Below are positions 29,168-57,985 of a stretch of DNA of 64,000 nt, piece by piece. Every line of letters begins with the position of its first letter. Within the stretch, counting starts at the first letter, position 1. The notes below the pieces were generated by a model that made no database searches, was not told the origin of the DNA, and was given only the letters and a program-made list of their open reading frames with translations. The translations under genes were made by a program, and so were the position numbers. Origin of the DNA: Lachnospiraceae bacterium (GTDB taxonomy: Bacteria > Bacillota > Clostridia > Lachnospirales > Lachnospiraceae); NCBI GenBank assembly GCA_017474455.1, contig JAFVHP010000033.1, positions 62,001-126,000 on the forward strand. The letters are read 5' to 3'.

Positions 29168-30153
29168 AGAAGCTTCGGGTGTTTTTGGCGATTTGCTTGA
29201 TCATGGCCTTATTCCCGGGATGCTCCCCGGAGCGGGAAGCGGCGCGGGAAGAAAAACTGATCCGGGTGGGCTTTTCCCAGGTGGGATCGGAGTCCGACTG
29301 GCGGGCTGCGAACACCCAGTCCATGATCAGCGCTCTCAGCGAAAAGAACGGGTTTGAGCTGATCTACGATAATGCCAGGCAGCGCCAGGAGAACCAGTTC
29401 CTCGCGATCCGCAATTTCATCCAGCAGGACGTGGACTATATCGTCCTGGCTCCCATCGCGGAATCAGGGTGGGACGATGTGCTCTCAGAAGCCAGGTCGG
29501 CAGGCATCCCGGTCATCATCGTGGACCGGCAGATCGCGGTCAGCGACGAAGATCTCTATACCAGCTGGGTCGGGTCGGACTTTCTGGCGGAAGGCCAGCG
29601 GGCCATCCGGTGGCTGGAAGGCACGATCCAGCAGCAGGGCCGGCTGGGAAAACCGCTGAATATCCTGCATATCCAGGGAACCGACGGCGCGACGGCACAG
29701 ATCGGCCGTACAAAAGCCCTGAACGACGCGGTCAGGACCCATCCCGGCTGGAAGGTGGCGGCAGTCCTTCCGGGGGAATATACGGAAGCGAAAAGCTATG
29801 AACTGGTCCGCGATTTCCTGGCCGAAGATCAGCAGATCGACGTGATCTACAGTGAAAATGACAATATGACCTTCGGCGCCATACGGGCCCTGGAAGAAGC
29901 GGGGATCAGTTACGGTGCCGACGGGGATGTGATCATCATTTCTTTTGACGCGGTGCACGACGCGCTGGAAATGTGCCTGAACGGGAAGATCAATATCTGT
30001 GTGGAATGCAACCCTCTGCACGGCCCCAGGGTGGCAGCCCTGATCCGGCAGCTGGAGAACGGTGAAACGCCGGCCAAACAGACCTATGTCGATGAGACGT
30101 TCTTCTCGCCGGGGCTTTTAAATGAAGACCTGATCGGCAGCAGGGAATACTGA
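29164..30153 (+). CDS. Sugar-binding lipoprotein coupled to the histidine kinase
   Basis: A 329-residue periplasmic-binding-protein-like lipoprotein with lipobox FPGC (Cys20) and the ribose/galactofuranose-binder fold (RVGFSQVGSESDWRAAN, DYIVLAPIAESGWDD, LNILHIQGTDGATAQIGR, VIYSENDNMTFGAIRALEE). It resembles the transporter's own binding protein at 31760-32818 but is encoded with the kinase through an ATGA overlap. The likely job is sugar sensing for the kinase, not transport; that is an inference from gene coupling. It ends at the triplicated terminator repeat. Confidence 0.85.
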   Translation: MKKLRVFLAICLIMALFPGCSPEREAAREEKLIRVGFSQVGSESDWRAANTQSMISALSEKNGFELIYDNARQRQENQFLAIRNFIQQDVDYIVLAPIAESGWDDVLSEARSAGIPVIIVDRQIAVSDEDLYTSWVGSDFLAEGQRAIRWLEGTIQQQGRLGKPLNILHIQGTDGATAQIGRTKALNDAVRTHPGWKVAAVLPGEYTEAKSYELVRDFLAEDQQIDVIYSENDNMTFGAIRALEEAGISYGADGDVIIISFDAVHDALEMCLNGKINICVECNPLHGPRVAALIRQLENGETPAKQTYVDETFFSPGLLNEDLIGSREY

Positions 30154-30154
30154 C

Positions 30155-30364
30155 GGGGAAGCCAGTGCGCCGGCACTGGCTTTTTGACGCTTATTCCGAT
30201 GCTGTCGTGTAGATCATTTCAACCGGACCGCGTAAGCGGGACGGGGAAGCCAGTGCGCCGGCACTGGCTTTTTAGCCGCTCATCCAACGATGCTGTCGTG
30301 TTGATCATTTCAACCGGACCGCGAGAGCGGGACGGGGAAGCCAGTGCGCCGGCACTGGCTTTTT
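30155..30364. repeat. Tandem repeat of three terminators with GNRA hairpins
   Basis: The stem-loop GCCAGTGC-GCCG-GCACTGGC followed by five T occurs three times, at 30161-30185, 30249-30273 and 30340-30364. The second and third belong to 76-bp units (30198-30273 and 30289-30364) that differ at about three bases and start 91 bp apart. Each of those units also holds the hairpin CCGC-GNRA-GCGG, with loop GTAA in one and GAGA in the other. The last T-tract runs into the stop codon of the convergent GntR gene. The array insulates two convergent transcripts. Confidence 0.85.
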
Positions 30365-31427
30365 AGCCACTGTCCCGCTGTATGAGCGTCCAGGGGAGCC
30401 GTATAGAGCGGGCCTTTTCGCCGCGGATGAGCCTCAGCAGAGCGGATGCGGCGGCTGTCCCCATCTGGTGGCGCTCATGGGCGAGGGAAGTGATGGACAC
30501 CGGGCCCAGCCGGCAGTAATGGCTGTTGTCGAAACTGACGACGGCGATATCTTCCGGAACGCGGAGGCCTTCCCTCGTGAGGCACCGGACCAGCTGGTAG
30601 GCGATCTCATCGTTATAGGCCATTATGGCGCTGCAGGGGGAAAGATCGTTTCGGATATAACGCATCAGCCAGTCCCTTCTGCCGCTCAGCAGATTCTCCC
30701 TGTTTTCCGAATCGTACCAGAGTATGCTTTTTTCGCTGACCGGGCAGCCGGCCCGGATCAGTGCGGACAAAAATCCGTGATAGCGTTCCGGACCCTGCAG
30801 ATCGTCGCTTTTGAATGCGCCGGCGATCTGCCTGTGGCCTGTATCCATCAGGTACCGGACTAAAAGTTCCGCGCCGCCTTCGTTATCGTCGCGGATACAG
30901 GGTGCGTTTTCCGGCACAGGGAGCAGGGCGTGGAGGTAGACGAGAGGTATCCCCAGTTCCCCGATCCTTTTCAGAAGGTCCAGGTTCGGACTGGGCAGGG
31001 CGCTTTTGGCAGGCTCCATGATGATGCCCGCGGGCGGTGCGGACAGGAGCCCGGTAAGGATCTCCCTTTCCCGCATGACACTGCCGGAGAGCGCATACGG
31101 TTCGATGTCAAACCCTTCCTGGCTAAAGACCGTTTCCATATCCTTTAACAGCTGCGGATACAGGTATTCGTCCGTCCCGTACACAAGGACGGCGATCCGC
31201 CCGCCGTGCCGTCCGGCATAGCCGGACAGGTAGGTGCCGCTGCCGTGCACGCGCACGATAACGCCTTCTTCTTCCAGTATAAGGAGCGCGTGCCGGACAG
31301 TCTGCCGGCTGTATCCGTACTGCCGCGAGATCTCCATTTCACCCGGAAGTTTATTCCGGCCCTCTGTGCGCATCCTCGCGCAGAGTCTTCTCAATTCAGA
31401 TGTCAGGATCAGATATTTCGATGCCAT
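30363..31427 (-). CDS. GntR/LacI hybrid repressor (AraR-like)
   Basis: A 354-residue regulator with an N-terminal GntR winged helix (KLPGEMEISRQYGYSRQTVR, then EEEGVIVRVHGSGTYLSG) joined to a LacI-type sugar-binding domain (about 75-350; SFDNSHYCRLGPVSITSLAH). This is the architecture of AraR. It is divergent from the YtfQ-type importer operon; a GTAC-centred palindrome in the shared intergenic region is a plausible operator. No Shine-Dalgarno motif is apparent before the ATG at 31427, which is unlike its neighbours. The effector is probably a pentose or furanose sugar, by analogy. Confidence 0.87.
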   Translation of the reverse strand: MASKYLILTSELRRLCARMRTEGRNKLPGEMEISRQYGYSRQTVRHALLILEEEGVIVRVHGSGTYLSGYAGRHGGRIAVLVYGTDEYLYPQLLKDMETVFSQEGFDIEPYALSGSVMREREILTGLLSAPPAGIIMEPAKSALPSPNLDLLKRIGELGIPLVYLHALLPVPENAPCIRDDNEGGAELLVRYLMDTGHRQIAGAFKSDDLQGPERYHGFLSALIRAGCPVSEKSILWYDSENRENLLSGRRDWLMRYIRNDLSPCSAIMAYNDEIAYQLVRCLTREGLRVPEDIAVVSFDNSHYCRLGPVSITSLAHERHQMGTAAASALLRLIRGEKARSIRLPWTLIQRDSG

Positions 31428-34469: not shown

Positions 34470-35532
34470 GAAAAAACTGTTTGCCTTTAATTCGCAGCTG
34501 CTGATCCCGGTCATTGCCATCGTGATCCTCGTGATCTTCAACCTGTTCAGGGATCCGTCGTTCTTCTCCGTCAGCATAGCGTCCAACAACAACGGCGATC
34601 CGGTCCTGCAGGGCAACCTGATCTCGATCCTGAACGGTGCGTCCGAACTGGTCATTCTTGCCATGGGCATGACCCTTGTGACGGCGGCCTGCGGAGGACA
34701 GGATATTTCCGTAGGCGCCCTTTCCGCGATCGCGGGCAGCGTATTTGTAAAAGTCTTAAAGAGCGGCGGCAGCATCAGCCCCGGCCTGGTGATCGGAGGC
34801 TTTCTGTGCTGCTGTATCGTGGCGATGATCTTCGGCGCTTTCAACGGTACGTTGGTCTCCGTTTTCGGCATCCAGCCCATGATCGCGACGCTGATCCTCT
34901 TTACCTGCGGACGCAGCATCGCCTACTGGATCAACGGAGGCGCGACACCGACCGTAACGAGCCCCGTCATTACGGCGATAGGCGGTTTCATACCGGGGAT
35001 CCCGGTACCGACGCCCATCCTGATCGTCATCCTGGCGGCGTGCCTGTTCGCACTGCTTTTCCGTTTTACCACACTGGGCCTGTATATCCAGTCTGTCGGC
35101 ATCAACCAGGCCGCGTCCCGGCTGAACGGTATCCATAACGTAGGCATAAAGCTCCTGTCCTTCATCATCCTGGGCGCGTGCTGCGCGGTCTCCGGCGTGA
35201 TCGGCGTCAGCCGCCTGGGCCTCATCAACCATGAGACGCTGCTCCTGAATATCGAGATGGACGCCATCCTCGCGGTCGCCATCGGCGGCAACAGCCTGGG
35301 CGGCGGCAGGTTCAACATGATCGGATCGGTCATCGGAGCCTATGCCATCCAGATGCTGACGATCACTCTCTATGCGATGAAGGTGCCTTCCACGGACGTG
35401 AAGGCTTACAAGGCAGTCGTCATTATCCTCCTGGTCGTGATCGGGTCTCCGGTCGTCAAGGAAGCGGCAGGCCGCTTCTGGAAGAAGATCAGTGAAAAGG
35501 GCACTGCAGGGACCGGAAAGGAGGCGGCATGA
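34462..35532 (+). CDS. Sugar ABC transporter permease (YtfT-like)
   Basis: A 356-residue BPD_transp_2 family permease with about 8-10 membrane helices. The segments ELVILAMGMTLVTAACGGQD and ISVGALSAIAGSV are typical of RbsC/YtfT-type permeases, as is IEMDAILAVAIGGNSLGGGR. Compared with E. coli YtfT the N-terminal segment carries an extra extracytoplasmic stretch (IASNNNGDPVLQ). It overlaps the ATPase gene by eight bases and the second permease gene by four. Confidence 0.92.
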   Translation: MNKKKLFAFNSQLLIPVIAIVILVIFNLFRDPSFFSVSIASNNNGDPVLQGNLISILNGASELVILAMGMTLVTAACGGQDISVGALSAIAGSVFVKVLKSGGSISPGLVIGGFLCCCIVAMIFGAFNGTLVSVFGIQPMIATLILFTCGRSIAYWINGGATPTVTSPVITAIGGFIPGIPVPTPILIVILAACLFALLFRFTTLGLYIQSVGINQAASRLNGIHNVGIKLLSFIILGACCAVSGVIGVSRLGLINHETLLLNIEMDAILAVAIGGNSLGGGRFNMIGSVIGAYAIQMLTITLYAMKVPSTDVKAYKAVVIILLVVIGSPVVKEAAGRFWKKISEKGTAGTGKEAA

Positions 35533-36602
35533 TCATGAATAAGAACGAAAACAGCCGCCCCGTGCGCGTACGTGAACCGATCACCGACACACAGCTCCTC
35601 ATAACGATCACGGTCTGCATCTTTTTCTTCATGTACATCCTGGCGATGCTGATCTGGGGAGGCGGCTTCCGCAAGCCGCAGATGATCTTCGACATCCTGA
35701 ACGATAACGCCTACCTGATCATTATCTCCTGCGGCCTGACGGTCGTCATGATCACGGGCAGCATCGATATTTCCGTAGGCGGCGTGACGGCGCTGGTCGC
35801 CATGGCCGACGTCATGATACTGAGCGGCCATGCCGGGCCTTTTTCCGGCATCCCGGAAAAGTCACGCATCGTCCTCGCCTTCTGCATGGCGTTGTTCATC
35901 GGCCTTTTGTACGGGCTGATACAGGGATATCTGATCGCCTATCTGGAGATACAGCCGTTCATCATTACCCTGGCCGGAATGTTCTTCGCCAGGGGCATGA
36001 TCACCATCATCAGCGTGGATCCCCAGAAAGCGCCCCAGAACCTGATGGACATCCTCCAGAAGAGGATCGAGATCCCCTGGCTCGGCTCGCCCAACAAAAA
36101 AGGCGTGATCATACCGGCAAGGATGGAGATCGGCGTAGTCATCGCCCTGGTGATCGTCGCCCTCATATTCATCCTCCTGACCAGGTTCCGGCTCGGCCGT
36201 CATTTCTACGCGGTCGGCGGCAACCGGCAGAGCGCGCTGATGCTCGGTGTCAATGTCAAAAAGACCCGTTTTATGGCGCACCTGATCAGCGGCCTCCTGG
36301 CGGGCATCGCCGGATTCGTGTTCATGATGCATACAGGGGCCGGCAACGCCACCAACGCGACGGCGGCTGAGATGAACGCCATCGCTTCCTCCATTATCGG
36401 CGGTACGCTCCTGACCGGCGGCGTCGGCAACGTCATCGGTACACTGTTCGGCGTACTGACCCTTTCCACAATCAAATCGATCGTGACGACCTCCGGCTTA
36501 AGAGACCCCTGGTGGCAGAGCATCACCACCGGCGCCATGCTTTGCTTCTTCATCCTGCTGCAGAGCGTCGTCCTGATGCAGAAACATAAGAGAAGCAAAT
36601 AA
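35529..36602 (+). CDS. Sugar ABC transporter permease (YjfF-like)
   Basis: A 357-residue second permease of the same family, closest in pattern to YjfF: GLTVVMITGSIDISVGGVTA, FIITLAGMFFARGMITI, HFYAVGGNRQSALMLGVNV and IASSIIGGTLLTGGVGNVIG. It completes a YtfQRT-YjfF importer. The start at 35529 overlaps the previous stop as ATGA; an alternative ATG at 35535 is equally possible given AAAGGAGG at 35517-35524. A perfect-stem terminator follows. Confidence 0.92.
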   Translation: MIMNKNENSRPVRVREPITDTQLLITITVCIFFFMYILAMLIWGGGFRKPQMIFDILNDNAYLIIISCGLTVVMITGSIDISVGGVTALVAMADVMILSGHAGPFSGIPEKSRIVLAFCMALFIGLLYGLIQGYLIAYLEIQPFIITLAGMFFARGMITIISVDPQKAPQNLMDILQKRIEIPWLGSPNKKGVIIPARMEIGVVIALVIVALIFILLTRFRLGRHFYAVGGNRQSALMLGVNVKKTRFMAHLISGLLAGIAGFVFMMHTGAGNATNATAAEMNAIASSIIGGTLLTGGVGNVIGTLFGVLTLSTIKSIVTTSGLRDPWWQSITTGAMLCFFILLQSVVLMQKHKRSK

Positions 36603-36680
36603 TCTGCTAATAATTTGCAAATAACCTGTTAGTAACCTGCAAACCGATACCTTTTTTTCAATGTTCCCTCTTTAATAGCA

Positions 36681-36727
36681 AGCAGAAAAGAGAAACGGCA
36701 TACTCCCTCCCGTTTCTCTTTTCTGCT
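36681..36727 (+). terminator. Intrinsic terminator of the importer operon
   Basis: AGCAGAAAAGAGAAACGG (36681-36698) pairs perfectly over 18 bp with the segment at 36710-36727 around an 11-nt loop. The T-rich 3' arm serves as the release tract. Confidence 0.85.
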
Positions 36728-36741
36728 GTTTAGGGTGAAAA

Positions 36742-37590
36742 CAAATCAGAAGACCAATAGAAGCAGGTTAATTTGAAGCAAATTTGTTTGAAGAAGATTT
36801 AATCGAAGCATAGTGATTCGGACTTTCGGCCTGCCAGTAGATATTTGAATTCCAGGCCGTCTCAGAGGACCATAGAAGCGTTTTTATTCGGCCTGCCAGC
36901 TGAAACGTGAATCCTAGGCCGTCGTCGGTTCGGCCTGTTGAGCTGGATTTGTTGATCAGGCCGTCTGTTGACGGTGGTCAGACTTGGTTTCGACGGCCTG
37001 GGAATCAAAAATAGCAACCTAGGCCGAATCAGAAGACCATAAAAGCAGATTAATTCGGCCTGCCAGTTGAAATTTGAATTCCAGGCCGTCGTTGGTTCGG
37101 CCTGATGTGCTGGATTTGTTGATCAGGCCGTCTTTTGACAGAGGTCAGGCATGTTTTCGACGGCCTGGGAGTCAAAAATGGCATCCTAGGCCGTCTCAGA
37201 CGACCAAACAAGCCACTAAATTCGGCCTGCCAGCTGATATCTGAATTCCAGGCCGTCCTCGGTTCGGCCTGTTGAGCTGGATTTGTTGATCAGGCCGTCT
37301 GTTGACGGTGGTCAGACTTGGTTTCGACGGCCTGGGAATCAAAAATGGCAACCTAGGCCGAATCAGAAGACCATATAAGCAGATTAATTCGGCCTGCCAG
37401 CTGATATTTGAATTGCAGGCCGTCGTCGGTTCGGCCTGTTGTGCTAGATTTGCTGATCAGGCCGTCGGTTGACAGAGATCAGACATGATTTCGACGGCCT
37501 GGGAATCAAAAATGGCATCTTAAGCCGTCTCAGAAGACCGTAGAAGCAAGTTTATTCGGCCTGCCAGTTAAAATTTGAATTCTAGGCCGA
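36742..37590. repeat. 167-bp tandem repeat array with A-B alternation
   Basis: TTCGGCCTGCCAG recurs at 36887, 37054, 37221, 37388 and 37555, a spacing of exactly 167 bp each time. A shortened 62-bp copy (36825-36886) and a unit tail (from 36742) precede them. Units one and three are nearly alike, as are units two and four, giving a 334-bp higher-order repeat. Every unit carries three CGGCCTG/CAGGCCG-type inverted pairs. It fills the gap between two convergent genes and has no convincing reading frame. Confidence 0.92.
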
Positions 37591-37630
37591 TCGAATAGAG
37601 CATTGCTGGTATAGAAATATAAAATACAGA

Positions 37631-37664
37631 AATACCGCCCGGACGTAATAGACCGGGCGGTATT
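37631..37664 (-). terminator. Intrinsic terminator of the DUF4353 lipoprotein gene
   Basis: AATACCGCCCGG pairs with CCGGGCGGTATT over 12 bp around a 10-nt loop, 35 bp beyond the stop of the minus-strand gene. Confidence 0.7.
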
Positions 37665-37698
37665 ACCATGTATCGATTTAATGTGCTCCGGAAGCGGA

Positions 37699-39219
37699 TC
37701 ACCTTCCCGGTCCGCCAGTTCTGTCGTTTGGCATACCGTTCCCCCGGGCAGGCATACCATTTCCCTGGCCCGGCATACCGTTACCCTGGAAAGGCATGTC
37801 TTCCCCCCGGGCAGGCATACCTTCCGGCGGAGCGGGCATATCCTCCTGAGCAGGCATATCTTCCGGCAGGGCTGGCATATCCTCAGACGGAGCCATTTCC
37901 CCGCTGTTCTCCGGTATGTTTCCGTTTCCCTGCATCATGCCGGGCCTGCTGCCCATTCCTCTCATTCCGCCCAGGCCTCCCATCATCTGGTTTGAAAGGG
38001 CTGTCACCTGCGTGCCGTTGACATAGACGGTTCCCCCGTTCAATGAAGCTTTTCCGTCATAGTCAAAAGCGGAATTGCCGCTGACACGGATCGTGCCGCC
38101 GTTGATCGTCAGATTCCCGTTGGAGTCAAAGCCGTCGGTGTCGCCCTGGCCCATGGTGATCTCGATCTCACCGCCGTTGATCTCGATGTTTACACTGTAA
38201 GCGGTGGATTTGGCAGCAGCGTTGATGCCGTCGTCGCTGGCCGAGATCGTGAAGCTGCCGTCATTGATCTGGATATTGGTGGATTCAATGCCTTCAACAG
38301 CCGTGATATCAAAGGTACCGCCGTCGATCTGCAGGAAAGCGTTGGCCTGGATGCCGTCGTCATCGGCTTCGATGACAAATGTACCGCCGCCGATCCACAT
38401 ATAGCCGAAGGAATCATCGTCGTCGTTCTCCGCGTGGAAAGCGTCTTTACCGGCTGTGATGTCGAAAGTACCGTCCGCGATCACGATGGAATCATTGGCT
38501 TCGAATGCCTTTGAAGCGGCTGTGACTTCATATGTGCCGCCGGTCACCTTCAGGTCGTCCTTGGAAGTGATGCCGTTGTCGGAGGATTCGATCGTCAGCG
38601 TGCCTGTGCCGTTCAGGACGAGGTCGTCTTTGGAAAAGATGACCGCATCCGTGTTGGTATCCCCGTCTGCGGCAAAATCATCTGTAACAGTCAGGTGGTT
38701 TTCGGAATCCGTCGTGGTAACGAAGACCTTGTCGGCATTCACTACATAAATGCAGGGAAAATCTTTGTTTGTAATGCTCAGACCGTCCAGTACCAGCTGT
38801 ACCTTCGCTTCGTCCGCGGCTTCGATATAGACTGTCACTTCTTCCGCGCTGCCGGTAAGGACATATACGCCTTCTTCCGTAATATGGATATCGGTACCGT
38901 CTTCAACGGTGTAGTGAACGGTACCGGACAGATCCGCTTCCTGCTGCAGGTCCCTGTCCGAAAACAGGCCGTCTGTATCGATGAGCGCGGATGTATCCTC
39001 AGCGCCCACGGCAGCAGAAGCTGCGCTGGAGGAGTCTGTATTAGAGGGCGCTTCGTTTGAGGCAGCTGCTGCAGAAGAGGCAGCAACTCCGGAAAGCTCC
39101 GTTCCTGTTCCCGCTGCCTGGACCTGCCGGTCGGCGGCTGCCGTGCATCCCAGGACAGAGAAGATTATGATACCCGCGGCAATTGCCGCTGCCAGTTTAT
39201 TTGACTTTTCTTTTCTCAT
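37699..39219 (-). CDS. Carbohydrate-binding beta-helix lipoprotein (DUF4353-like)
   Basis: A 506-residue lipoprotein with lipobox SVLGC (Cys25) and an Ala/Ser-rich tether. Residues about 90-420 contain short strand repeats such as DDLVLNGTGTLTIES and DDLKVTGGTYEVTA, with GGTFVIEADDDGIQA further on; this is the DUF4353 'carbohydrate-binding domain-containing' type, predicted as a right-handed beta-helix. The last 80 residues are low-complexity, repeating E-D-M-P-A-x-P and later Q-G-N-G-M-P. The family is often found near CotH and polyphosphate genes; its ligand is unknown. It is monocistronic and convergent with the repeat array. Confidence 0.8.
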   Translation of the reverse strand: MRKEKSNKLAAAIAAGIIIFSVLGCTAAADRQVQAAGTGTELSGVAASSAAAASNEAPSNTDSSSAASAAVGAEDTSALIDTDGLFSDRDLQQEADLSGTVHYTVEDGTDIHITEEGVYVLTGSAEEVTVYIEAADEAKVQLVLDGLSITNKDFPCIYVVNADKVFVTTTDSENHLTVTDDFAADGDTNTDAVIFSKDDLVLNGTGTLTIESSDNGITSKDDLKVTGGTYEVTAASKAFEANDSIVIADGTFDITAGKDAFHAENDDDDSFGYMWIGGGTFVIEADDDGIQANAFLQIDGGTFDITAVEGIESTNIQINDGSFTISASDDGINAAAKSTAYSVNIEINGGEIEITMGQGDTDGFDSNGNLTINGGTIRVSGNSAFDYDGKASLNGGTVYVNGTQVTALSNQMMGGLGGMRGMGSRPGMMQGNGNIPENSGEMAPSEDMPALPEDMPAQEDMPAPPEGMPARGEDMPFQGNGMPGQGNGMPARGNGMPNDRTGGPGR

Positions 39220-41989: not shown

Positions 41990-43321
41990 ATGAAATCTAG
42001 ATTGATCAGCCTGATGGCAACGGCCGCCATGGTATTAGTGCTTTTTGCCGGCCTTAAACTGGACGTATATGCAATGACATATACGGTGACTTATGATCCG
42101 AACGGCGGTACCAAAGGCCCGGACTGGGTGGACAGCGTCCAGGTCACGCTGAGCGATACCGCCCAGGAGGCATGGTTTACGCCCAATTATTATGAGGACG
42201 TCGTGGCCCCGCCTGCTGGAATGGTCTTCGACGGCTTCGACGTCAACGGAACGAGGGTGTGGTCGGTAACAGCGGTCCAGTCCCTGCTTACCGAGAACAC
42301 CCTCATCAAATATCTCTGGAAGAGTGAGCTGTACTACACGGTCAATTACGACGTAAACGGCGGCACCAAGGGTCCGGACTGGGTGGACAGCGTCCAGGTC
42401 AAGCTGAACGATTCCGGCTCTGTCGATCCGTGGTTTACACCGAATTATTCGGATCAGGTCGCGATCCCGCCCGAAGGGATGGAATTCGACGGATTCGATG
42501 TCAACGGAACAAAGGTAGCGGCGGTCACGGCGGTCCAGTCCCTGCTTACCGAAAACACCATCATCAAGTATCTCTGGAAGGAAAGCAGCAGTAAGAAATA
42601 CATCTATGAGGGGGATTTTGACGTCATCTACAAGAAAAAATCCCAGCGTCCCATCATCTTCAGATTCCACCGCAGAGCAGACGATGAACAGACCTTCAAA
42701 CTTTTCAAAGAACTCATTGTAGACGGTTCGATACTTGACAGGTCGAAATTCATGATAAGCAGCGGAAGTCTCATTGTCGAGCTGAATGCAGATTATCTTG
42801 AAACGCTGCCCGAAGGGGAGCATACGCTGCAGCCGGTATTCGAGGACGGGGAAGGCCCGGCAGTCACCTTCCTGGTCGAAAAGGAAGGCGGTTCCGAACC
42901 AGTCTATGTTGATCATCACGAGCATAATTATGTATGGCAGGTGGTGAGGGAAGCTACTCCGACCGCAGACGGCGAGATGGTATACGCCTGCAGTGTATGC
43001 GGTGCGGTAGCCCAGCGTCTTCCGATCACCGGCTACGTGGCGTTCAACCGTGACCTGGCGGAGAAGATCAGGACAGCACTGCCCGGTGCGGAGGTCAGGG
43101 TGAAGACCAATATGTGGATCAGCCTGTACTCGCTCTCCCTCGATGAGCTGGCAAAGCGTCCGGACGTGAGCGTGACCGTTGATTTCATGTACAATGGAAT
43201 GAATTACCGGGTCACGATCCCTGCCGGAGCGGATATCGCGGCGCTGAAGGATGAGAAAGGCTATGCCGGATTCCTTTTCCTCGGTATGAAGTTCGGCCTG
43301 ACGCAGCCGGATAAGAACTGA
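41990..43321 (+). CDS. Secreted protein with two tandem repeat domains
   Basis: A 443-residue exported protein. A signal peptide (about 1-28, ending LDVYA) is followed by two nearly identical units of about 85 residues beginning YTVTYDPNGGTKGPDWVDSV (residue 31) and YTVNYDVNGGTKGPDWVDSV (residue 116). These resemble InlB B-repeats, a beta-grasp module of surface proteins. A beta-rich region of about 100 residues follows, then a HEHNYVWQ...CSVCG element common in Lachnospiraceae surface proteins, and a C-terminal domain. No LPxTG anchor is visible. The function is unknown; adhesion is likely. Confidence 0.75.
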   Translation: MKSRLISLMATAAMVLVLFAGLKLDVYAMTYTVTYDPNGGTKGPDWVDSVQVTLSDTAQEAWFTPNYYEDVVAPPAGMVFDGFDVNGTRVWSVTAVQSLLTENTLIKYLWKSELYYTVNYDVNGGTKGPDWVDSVQVKLNDSGSVDPWFTPNYSDQVAIPPEGMEFDGFDVNGTKVAAVTAVQSLLTENTIIKYLWKESSSKKYIYEGDFDVIYKKKSQRPIIFRFHRRADDEQTFKLFKELIVDGSILDRSKFMISSGSLIVELNADYLETLPEGEHTLQPVFEDGEGPAVTFLVEKEGGSEPVYVDHHEHNYVWQVVREATPTADGEMVYACSVCGAVAQRLPITGYVAFNRDLAEKIRTALPGAEVRVKTNMWISLYSLSLDELAKRPDVSVTVDFMYNGMNYRVTIPAGADIAALKDEKGYAGFLFLGMKFGLTQPDKN

Positions 43322-57333: not shown

Positions 57334-57421
57334 CGAAAACAGATGTAAAAACAGATGTGAAAACAGATGCGAAAACAGGAGACGCGAAAACAGACGTAAA
57401 AATAGATGTGAAAACAGACGG
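57334..57421. repeat. 12-bp tandem repeat (AAAACAGATGTG-like)
   Basis: Seven copies of an AAAACAGAYGYR motif with anchor C at 57340, 57352, 57364, 57376, 57391, 57403 and 57415; the pitch is 12 bp except one of 15. Because 12 is a multiple of three, several frames stay open; one would encode a K-T-D-V repeat, another a C-E-N-R repeat. Neither has a good ribosome site. Confidence 0.85.
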
Positions 57422-57524
57422 TAGTCCGGATTTTACATATTTACATCCAATAAAGGCAGAATCAGTCCGTACACTTTTAAAACAATTTGCCTGAAAACAC
57501 ATATTGAATTACTGTTTCTTATAG

Positions 57525-57680
57525 ATTGAGGGGTATATCATCTATACTTGAGCACATATTAATTGGCTAGATAACAGAAACCATCTAGCCTTCGACCGGA
57601 AACAAGTTCGTTCCGGCACCACCCTGATACCCGGTAAAGTCGCACCGGTATGTATTCAATACAAAGAGTCTCTTTTCAGG
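57525..57680 (+). ncRNA. Candidate structured RNA
   Basis: Five consecutive hairpins are packed into 150 bp: GTATA/TATAC (57533-57547), GGCTAGAT/ATCTAGCC (57565-57590), CCGGAA/TTCCGG (57596-57616), ATACCCGGT/ACCGGTAT with one bulge (57627-57651) and GTATT/AATAC. AAAGAG-T-CTCTTT follows. It lies in an intergenic region and is not protein-coding in any convincing frame. It matches no RNA family I can name; strand and boundaries are uncertain. Confidence 0.35.
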
Positions 57681-57793
57681 TACAGATGGTTTGTTTACAT
57701 ATTTCCTGCTCATATGTATCATGAGGTGCTGCCTGCCTCTGCAGGTCATACGGAATCGATGATCCGCAGCTGTTAATATGTGTGGCAGCCACC

Positions 57794-57985
57794 AAAAACA
57801 GGGAGCCGGTTACAGAATATGTCCGGCAGCCACCAAAAAACAGGAAGCCGGAGACAGACTTTGTATGTGTGGCCGCCAAAAAACAGAAGGCCTGATACAG
57901 AATATGTAAGTTAGCTGTTAAAAACAGAAGGCCTGATACAGAATATGTAAGTTAGCTGTTAAAAACAGGAGGTCAGATACAGAAG
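57794..57985 (+). repeat. 41-43-bp tandem repeat upstream of DUF1294
   Basis: Five copies of a unit containing AAAACAGRARGCC...ACAGAATATGT, with the anchor C at 57799, 57841, 57884, 57925 and 57966. Copies three and four are almost identical. The last copy supplies AGGAGG (57967-57972), the ribosome site of the DUF1294 gene; earlier copies have degenerate versions (GGGAG, GGAAG, GAAGG). Confidence 0.82.

Follow-up and report, generated by a model that had tools for sequence, protein, structure and literature searches.

A 167-bp tandem array in a Lachnospiraceae genome belongs to a scattered family of extragenic palindrome arrays with conserved arms

Bacterial VNTR loci and minisatellites are tandem, intergenic repeats that form higher-order units and lose copies by deletion. 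The BIMEs of E. coli bind gyrase, IHF or Pol I and have been proposed to act in chromosome organisation or topology. As far as the cited descriptions go, BIMEs consist of consecutive extragenic palindromes and are reported protein binding sites (PMC8266576; PMC2817692). In the portions of the published account that concern their architecture, the REPINs of Pseudomonas fluorescens SBW25 have conserved inverted ends and a spacer conserved mainly in length, and they form tandem clusters, most of them being solitary (PMC3116915). REPs of the GTAG type bear that tag and are associated with RAYTs, whereas those of the CGTC type have stems of 8-9 bp, loops of 4-5 nt, no known transposase and rare clusters (PMC3733652). 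No earlier description of arrays such as those reported below was found in the literature searched, the BIME literature included.

The DNA analysed here (the window) is a stretch of 64,000 nt from contig JAFVHP010000033.1 of a Lachnospiraceae bacterium, whose genome is labelled G000. The assembly is a draft of 51 contigs (96.6% complete), and the window array, at 36742..37590, lies inside a 149-kb contig. Each unit begins with TTCGGCCTGCCAG, at 36887, 37054, 37221, 37388 and 37555, which confirmed the exact step of 167 bp without indels proposed in the sequence-only reading. TRF and unit alignment delimited, on the + strand, unit 1 (36887..37053, type A), unit 2 (37054..37220, type B), unit 3 (37221..37387, type A) and unit 4 (37388..37554, type B), which together form the four full units (36887-37554), and a partial unit 5 (37555..37589) that holds only the palindrome termed a below. 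The array had been called exact: this is correct for its spacing but not for its sequence, as the units differ pairwise at 8-26 of 167 sites (5-16%). Over 36854-37589, TRF gave a score of 1059 for period 167 and 1206 for period 334. The A-B-A-B order was likewise recovered: units 1 and 3 carry the A features, units 2 and 4 carry those of type B, and the parsimony site patterns are 1212 in eight columns, 1122 in one and 1221 in none. These patterns agree with the proposed growth by duplication of a dimer. However, units 1 and 3 differ at 8 sites and units 2 and 4 at 23 (22-26 for A against B; binomial p = 0.011 for equal divergence of both pairs), which is at odds with a single dimer duplication and equal ages of the two pairs.

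At the left edge of the array, a 62-bp truncated copy (36825..36886, + strand) consists of palindrome a and the unit tail and fits, in line with the earlier description, a 105-bp internal deletion between two AGGCCGTC words. Further to the left, a degraded unit-end remnant (AATCAGAAGACCAATAGAAGCAGGTTAAT; 36744..36772, + strand) looks older. The A-B-A-B pattern and the 105-bp deletion suggest that copy number would change by slippage or unequal recombination between copies. No ORF of at least 60 aa lies wholly inside the array, and an ORF of 76 aa on the minus strand overlaps its right end and continues beyond it; the array was therefore taken as non-coding.

Analysis of the unit revealed that it is not the basic element but a composite of three 33-bp palindromes of the form CGGCYTR-N19-YARGCCG, the third of which is inverted. 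In unit 1, palindrome a (CGGCCTG-N19-TAGGCCG; 36889..36921, + strand) recurs in each unit at +167, palindrome b (CGGCCTG-N19-CAGGCCG; 36931..36963, + strand) is placed 42 bp from a, and palindrome c (36994..37026, - strand), inverted relative to a and b, is placed 63 bp from b and 62 bp before the next a. Palindrome c scored 41.2 bits on the - strand and 22.8 bits on the + strand. The three CGGCCTG/CAGGCCG-type pairs per unit were thus found as described, one arm of the last reading AAGCCG. When half-sites were scanned at any distance, the loop was 19 in 60 of 62 cases (6 and 20 in the other two). The linker was 19 in 42 of 61 cases and otherwise variable, with values of 9, 29 and 30 in the window array. 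Within this array the arms vary in 2 of 42 columns and the remainder in 35 of 125 (Fisher p = 0.001), which bears out the idea of constrained arms and drifting spacers, an idea better supported by the other arrays of the genome. CGGCCTG occurs at 62 sites on both strands of the window, compared with 11.0 expected from dinucleotide shuffles. As the array holds 22 of these sites, the remaining 40 also exceed the expectation of 11 for the whole window; codon usage is the probable cause of this excess outside the array.

The array is flanked by two convergent genes, named by eye: a membrane permease resembling sugar ABC transporters on its left (35529..36602, + strand) and a secreted, carbohydrate-binding-like protein on its right (37699..39219, - strand). 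A perfect 18-bp inverted repeat with an 11-nt gap (36681..36727) follows the permease gene, and a perfect 12-bp inverted repeat with a 10-nt gap (37631..37664) lies on the right side; the two enclose the array and are possibly terminators. Neither was listed in a simple terminator scan, which picked up three terminator-like sites on the + strand within the array versus 1.5 expected. Other repeats were also seen in the window. A 91-bp intergenic tandem repeat (30152-30368) has related copies at L078 7086-7257 and L014 4180-4236, which indicates another dispersed family in G000. Following a MATE-like transporter gene, the intergenic region 57335-57984 holds tandem repeats of 12, 24 and 41-43 bp, with no copy among the sampled loci of the genome. 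A 258-bp tandem repeat (42101-42580) lies within the ORF 41990-43321 and encodes repeated NGGTKGPDWVDSVQV-type protein modules.

BLAST of 502 array bases against the same genome returned nothing beyond the array itself, and the wider family was revealed only by an arm pattern with a free loop. Matches to this pattern clustered at the end of contig C15, in C17, at the start of C21, in C23, in C39 and at the end of C47. The window array is one of about six palindrome arrays scattered across G000; a count over the array regions gave 60 palindromes. Beyond the window, a spacing of 52 bp separates nearly all successive palindromes, and the copies keep a single orientation. The ends of C15 (L009, C15:148969) and C47 (L015, C47:17207) share a long array stretch, and these are probably neighbouring contigs with one array split by the assembly. 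Low-complexity tandem repeats adjoin two of the palindrome arrays (L010 3371-3504 and L011 414-560). Solitary matches with one mismatch numbered two (C21:7410 and C23:39759), not exceeding the control count of 4, and no solitary operator-like site stood out in G000. With the covariance model R1, 150 of 974 candidates in G000 were scored and none reached E<=1 except in or beside the arrays. Moreover, a 273-kb sample taken outside the known arrays contained no exact pair of 7-base arms that occurred at least three times at one spacing. The genomic context of the arrays varies: the C15/C47 array, if it is one array as is probable, is flanked by convergent genes, the C17 and C39 arrays by genes in the same direction and the C23 array by divergent genes, and the C21 array is upstream of a transporter-like gene. 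This lack of a fixed relation to gene ends argues against a function at transcript ends.

Comparison of the 60 palindromes between arrays gave identities of 0.83 for the 5' arm, 0.94 for the 3' arm, 0.41 for the loop and 0.32/0.37 for the flanks; selection of the palindromes by arm similarity to CGGCCTG/CAGGCCG somewhat favours the arms in these values, and it did not exclude transversions. The linkers are alike within one array and mostly unlike between arrays. All arm changes in the G000 copies were transitions (65/65), which represent far fewer events because array copies are not independent. Among 59 copies, the third arm pair was C-G in 43, T-G in 12, T-A in 4 and C-A in 0, and the innermost pair was A-C in 27, G-C in 26, G-T in 4 and A-T in 2. 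The covariance check on the inverted pairs, made with 41 sequences, was mixed: of 500 shuffles, 2 reached the observed covariation score and 26 each the values for percentage paired and for doubly changed cells, but 403 and 401 reached those for the pair-count and type-count measures. Since the array copies are related, this support was read as weak.

These pairing data bear on the view that the arrays are RNA hairpin arrays, either as transcribed structures with a role in transcript protection or termination or as a structured RNA. The low shuffle count for the covariation score would agree with it, as would the excess of terminator-like sites on the + strand, the position of the window array downstream of two convergent genes and the folding of unit 1, which on both strands is better than that of shuffled sequences (z -4.8 and -3.5). 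However, two of the five covariation measures are null, the A-C mismatch occupies the innermost pair in nearly half of the copies, and the sites of other arrays are upstream of genes or flanked by divergent ones. Furthermore, no Rfam model matched at its gathering score (16 matches to E = 10, all under the gathering scores), and the region 36500-37800 contains no promoter-like site (1.2 expected). A role as RNA hairpins is therefore considered quite unlikely.

The genus was represented by 62 genomes, one per species and some as little as 63% complete, which were scanned with the exact arm pattern. It matched 52 times in G000 and once or twice in 8 of the 61 congeners, with 0-3 matches of a reversed-pattern control. 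An array unique to this assembly had been one concern of the sequence-only reading. Within G000 it is not unique, as the palindrome lies at several loci, and among the 61 congeners no genome carried CGGCCTG-type arms above the control level. BLAST of the 731-base array against the same congeners gave one weak match, in G057 (E 3.6e-4), which was rejected as a relative because by eye it is coding-like and without tandem repeats. For a comparison with an empty site, four candidates were scored per genome, and no listed congener match spanned both flanking genes.

Several congeners have palindromic families of their own. In G013, the arm pattern ACAGTAY-N13-RTACTGT, whose arms are unrelated to those of G000, matched 20 times; in the other 61 genomes it matched once in each of three and not in the rest. 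Its arrays, with arms GACAGTAY/RTACTGTC and a period of 52 (one of 53), lie at L102 16804-17176, L149 459-775, L150 2050-2240 and L151 2035-2420, and several of their linkers share an AGCTTGC-like word. Between these arrays, identities over 21 palindromes were 0.93-0.96 in the arms, 0.22-0.30 in the loop and 0.36-0.48 in the flanks. G051 has arrays of period 85 with a common GGCAWWTGTAACCA core and different linkers (L116 3462-3801 and L117 16865-17117). Allowing at most two mismatches, a search for this core returned five matches, which lie on the contig that holds one of the arrays and on a third contig, where three of them (C184 7983-8349) are 86 and 256 bp apart. In G049 (48 matches) and G037 (23 matches) a common dispersed palindrome, TGAACCGG-N-CCGGTTCA, is occasionally tandem (e.g., G049:C5:77375-77495), and it was also matched in G038 (3), G031 (1) and G041 (1). 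Palindrome pairs of the form TTGTCCC-N19-GGGACAA, which likewise have 7-base arms separated by 19 bases, were observed in G046 (L126 12608-12678 and L128 8279-8345). In three species, arrays of near-constant period were seen at more than one locus; they form a class of extragenic palindromic arrays that turns over fast between species. That at least one sister species has arrays on a different motif suggests that something reads the arms. Samples of G028 (23 kb), G051 (65 kb, and another 145 kb with TRF only), G030 (29 kb), G046 (100 kb), G019 (200 kb), G027 (12 kb) and G049 (500 kb) contained no further 52-bp palindrome array; if a genome has four to six arrays, samples of this size could readily fail to include one.

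Two further explanations can be weighed at this point. An assembly artefact is most improbable: the assembly is a 51-contig draft and three contig ends (C15, C47 and C21) fall inside arrays, but the window array is interior to its contig with units that differ by 5-16%, the same dyad is present on several contigs, and G013 shows like arrays in a separate assembly. Tandem growth of an arbitrary palindrome without constraint, as in a neutral minisatellite, would be consistent with the other tandem repeats in intergenic regions here and with the local homogenisation of units. As in VNTRs and minisatellites, the G000 arrays are tandem head-to-tail, intergenic, organised in higher-order units and subject to deletion; they differ in a palindrome core common to unlinked loci. 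However, neutral drift should neither hold the arms at 83-94% identity while the loops drop to 41% (a contrast somewhat inflated by the arm-based choice of copies) nor keep the loop length at 19, and the same pattern is repeated in G013. This explanation was judged unlikely.

The search for relatives was extended to 299 genomes from the same family (for the most part a single genome from each genus), with model R1 in place of the exact arm pattern used for the genus. Besides G000, 12 genomes matched at E <= 0.01, of which nine were inspected and three (G150, G219 and G287) left out; as R1 demands the 33-bp geometry, like geometry among its matches is not evidence. The match in G325 was discarded as a terminator-like hairpin. 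In G260, of another genus (L044-L047), tandem blocks of 70-93 bp rich in AAGCCG/CGGCTT form multi-copy palindromic repeats that look intergenic, and G103, also of another genus (L048-L052), has a multi-copy palindromic repeat with TTACCGC-N25-GCGGTAA that looks intergenic. The remaining inspected matches appeared chance-like by eye. A tandem-arm pattern found two stretches in a genome-contig collection, which may leave out the genome of the window and very near ones; both (Anaerolineales and Actinomycetota) were different repeats by eye. None were found in viral contigs, nor in phage and plasmid records.

In its construction the G000 family resembles REPIN or BIME arrays, and its mode of action may be similar. 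As in REPINs, its palindromes have inverted ends and a spacer of fixed length, are extragenic, occur at several loci and form ordered tandem clusters. On a REPIN-like reading they would be selfish palindromes without host function, their arms being needed by a putative copying nuclease or transposase that acts on single-stranded hairpins. This architecture, with conserved inverted ends and a poorly conserved spacer of fixed length in ordered tandem clusters, is that described for REPINs in the relevant part of their account (PMC3116915). The species-restricted palindrome families in several congeners, with a more REP-like one in G049 and G037, point the same way, as does the absence of C-A at the third arm pair. 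Against it, the arms of G000 measure 7 bp compared with 16, there is no GTAG tag (the consensus flanks in a 41-copy alignment are TT and TC), and a clear solitary copy was not seen in G000, while most REPINs are solitary according to the passages cited (PMC3116915). Moreover, Y1_Tnp (Pfam PF01797) had no match in G000, G013, G049 or G037, so that mobilisation by a RAYT is not supported in G000 and G013. The domain is present in 44 of the 62 genomes, including the array-bearing G051 (4 matches); the congener G019 has 38 matches compared with none in G000. With BIMEs the family shares extragenic palindromes in consecutive, regularly spaced copies and, in the window array, one inverted element per unit; it differs in the lack of the GTAG tag and of a Y1_Tnp match, in the single orientation and mostly 52-bp spacing of the other arrays, and in a binding protein that is putative. 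One palindrome edge is mostly GGCCGTC, which recalls the CGTC REPs, for which likewise no transposase is known; in contrast to these, the CG of the tag is paired, the stem has 7 instead of 8-9 bp, the loop 19 instead of 4-5 nt, and there is no CCA tail. For want of a tag, a transposase match and solitary units, the family was not filed as REP or REPIN. A selfish, REPIN-like nature is doubtful but a serious possibility, and follows close behind the protein reading considered next.

Tentatively, and with somewhat less than even confidence, we regard the arrays as species-restricted extragenic dyads whose arms would be kept by a putative sequence-specific DNA-binding protein. Each dyad has two 7-bp half-sites (YARGCCG) in inverted orientation with 19 bp between them, and successive dyads, mostly separated by near whole helical turns (42, 52, 62 and 63 bp), would lie on one face of the helix. 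In the window array the spacings are near 4 (42) and 6 (62 and 63) turns, and 52 is near 5. The four commonest spacings fit 10.45 bp per turn with p = 0.002; the p value was 0.005 for all eight distinct G000 values, including the rare 45.5, 51, 52.5 and 53, 0.02 for the four commonest with the 39-bp deletion period, and 0.011 for the eight values with the G051 and G049 spacings. This phasing test was devised post hoc on few and dependent values, and the 70-93-bp periods of G260 were left out. It was the spacing phase, the transition-only arm changes and the fixed distance of the half-sites that led us to favour a protein that recognises the DNA duplex from one face. The third arm pair is never C-A, as a hairpin would give, and this stands against the protein reading. 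The sequence-only reading had proposed either a protein-binding array or a repeated RNA fold; between these, the data lean to DNA, considering the spacings near 4, 5 and 6 turns, the transition-only arms and the A-C pair in 27 of 59 copies, with RNA covariation weak and mixed.

According to the preferred protein reading, a putative and probably dimeric protein would read the arms as double-stranded DNA and would bind many copies together at several intergenic places. Such binding would serve chromosome organisation or topology, as proposed for the E. coli BIMEs, and the turnover of arm sequence between species would be expected if the protein and its site evolved jointly. Species-specific satellites in which the period is kept and the sequence replaced are familiar from eukaryotic centromeres, and to our knowledge none are known from bacteria. 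A bolder and rather unlikely extension is that congeners each have private, helically phased dyad arrays at several sites of the chromosome, in which the period stays constant (52 bp in two species) and the half-site is wholly replaced, as bacterial satellite or centromere-like DNA that would co-evolve with a fast-changing putative DNA-binding protein.

In practical terms, the arrays cause breaks in assemblies and may be useful as markers of strains. If they are selfish, they would be REPIN-like elements without a Y1_Tnp match, which would point to another mobiliser. Should a protein read the arms, every species would offer a natural experiment on how a DNA-binding protein and its site co-evolve.
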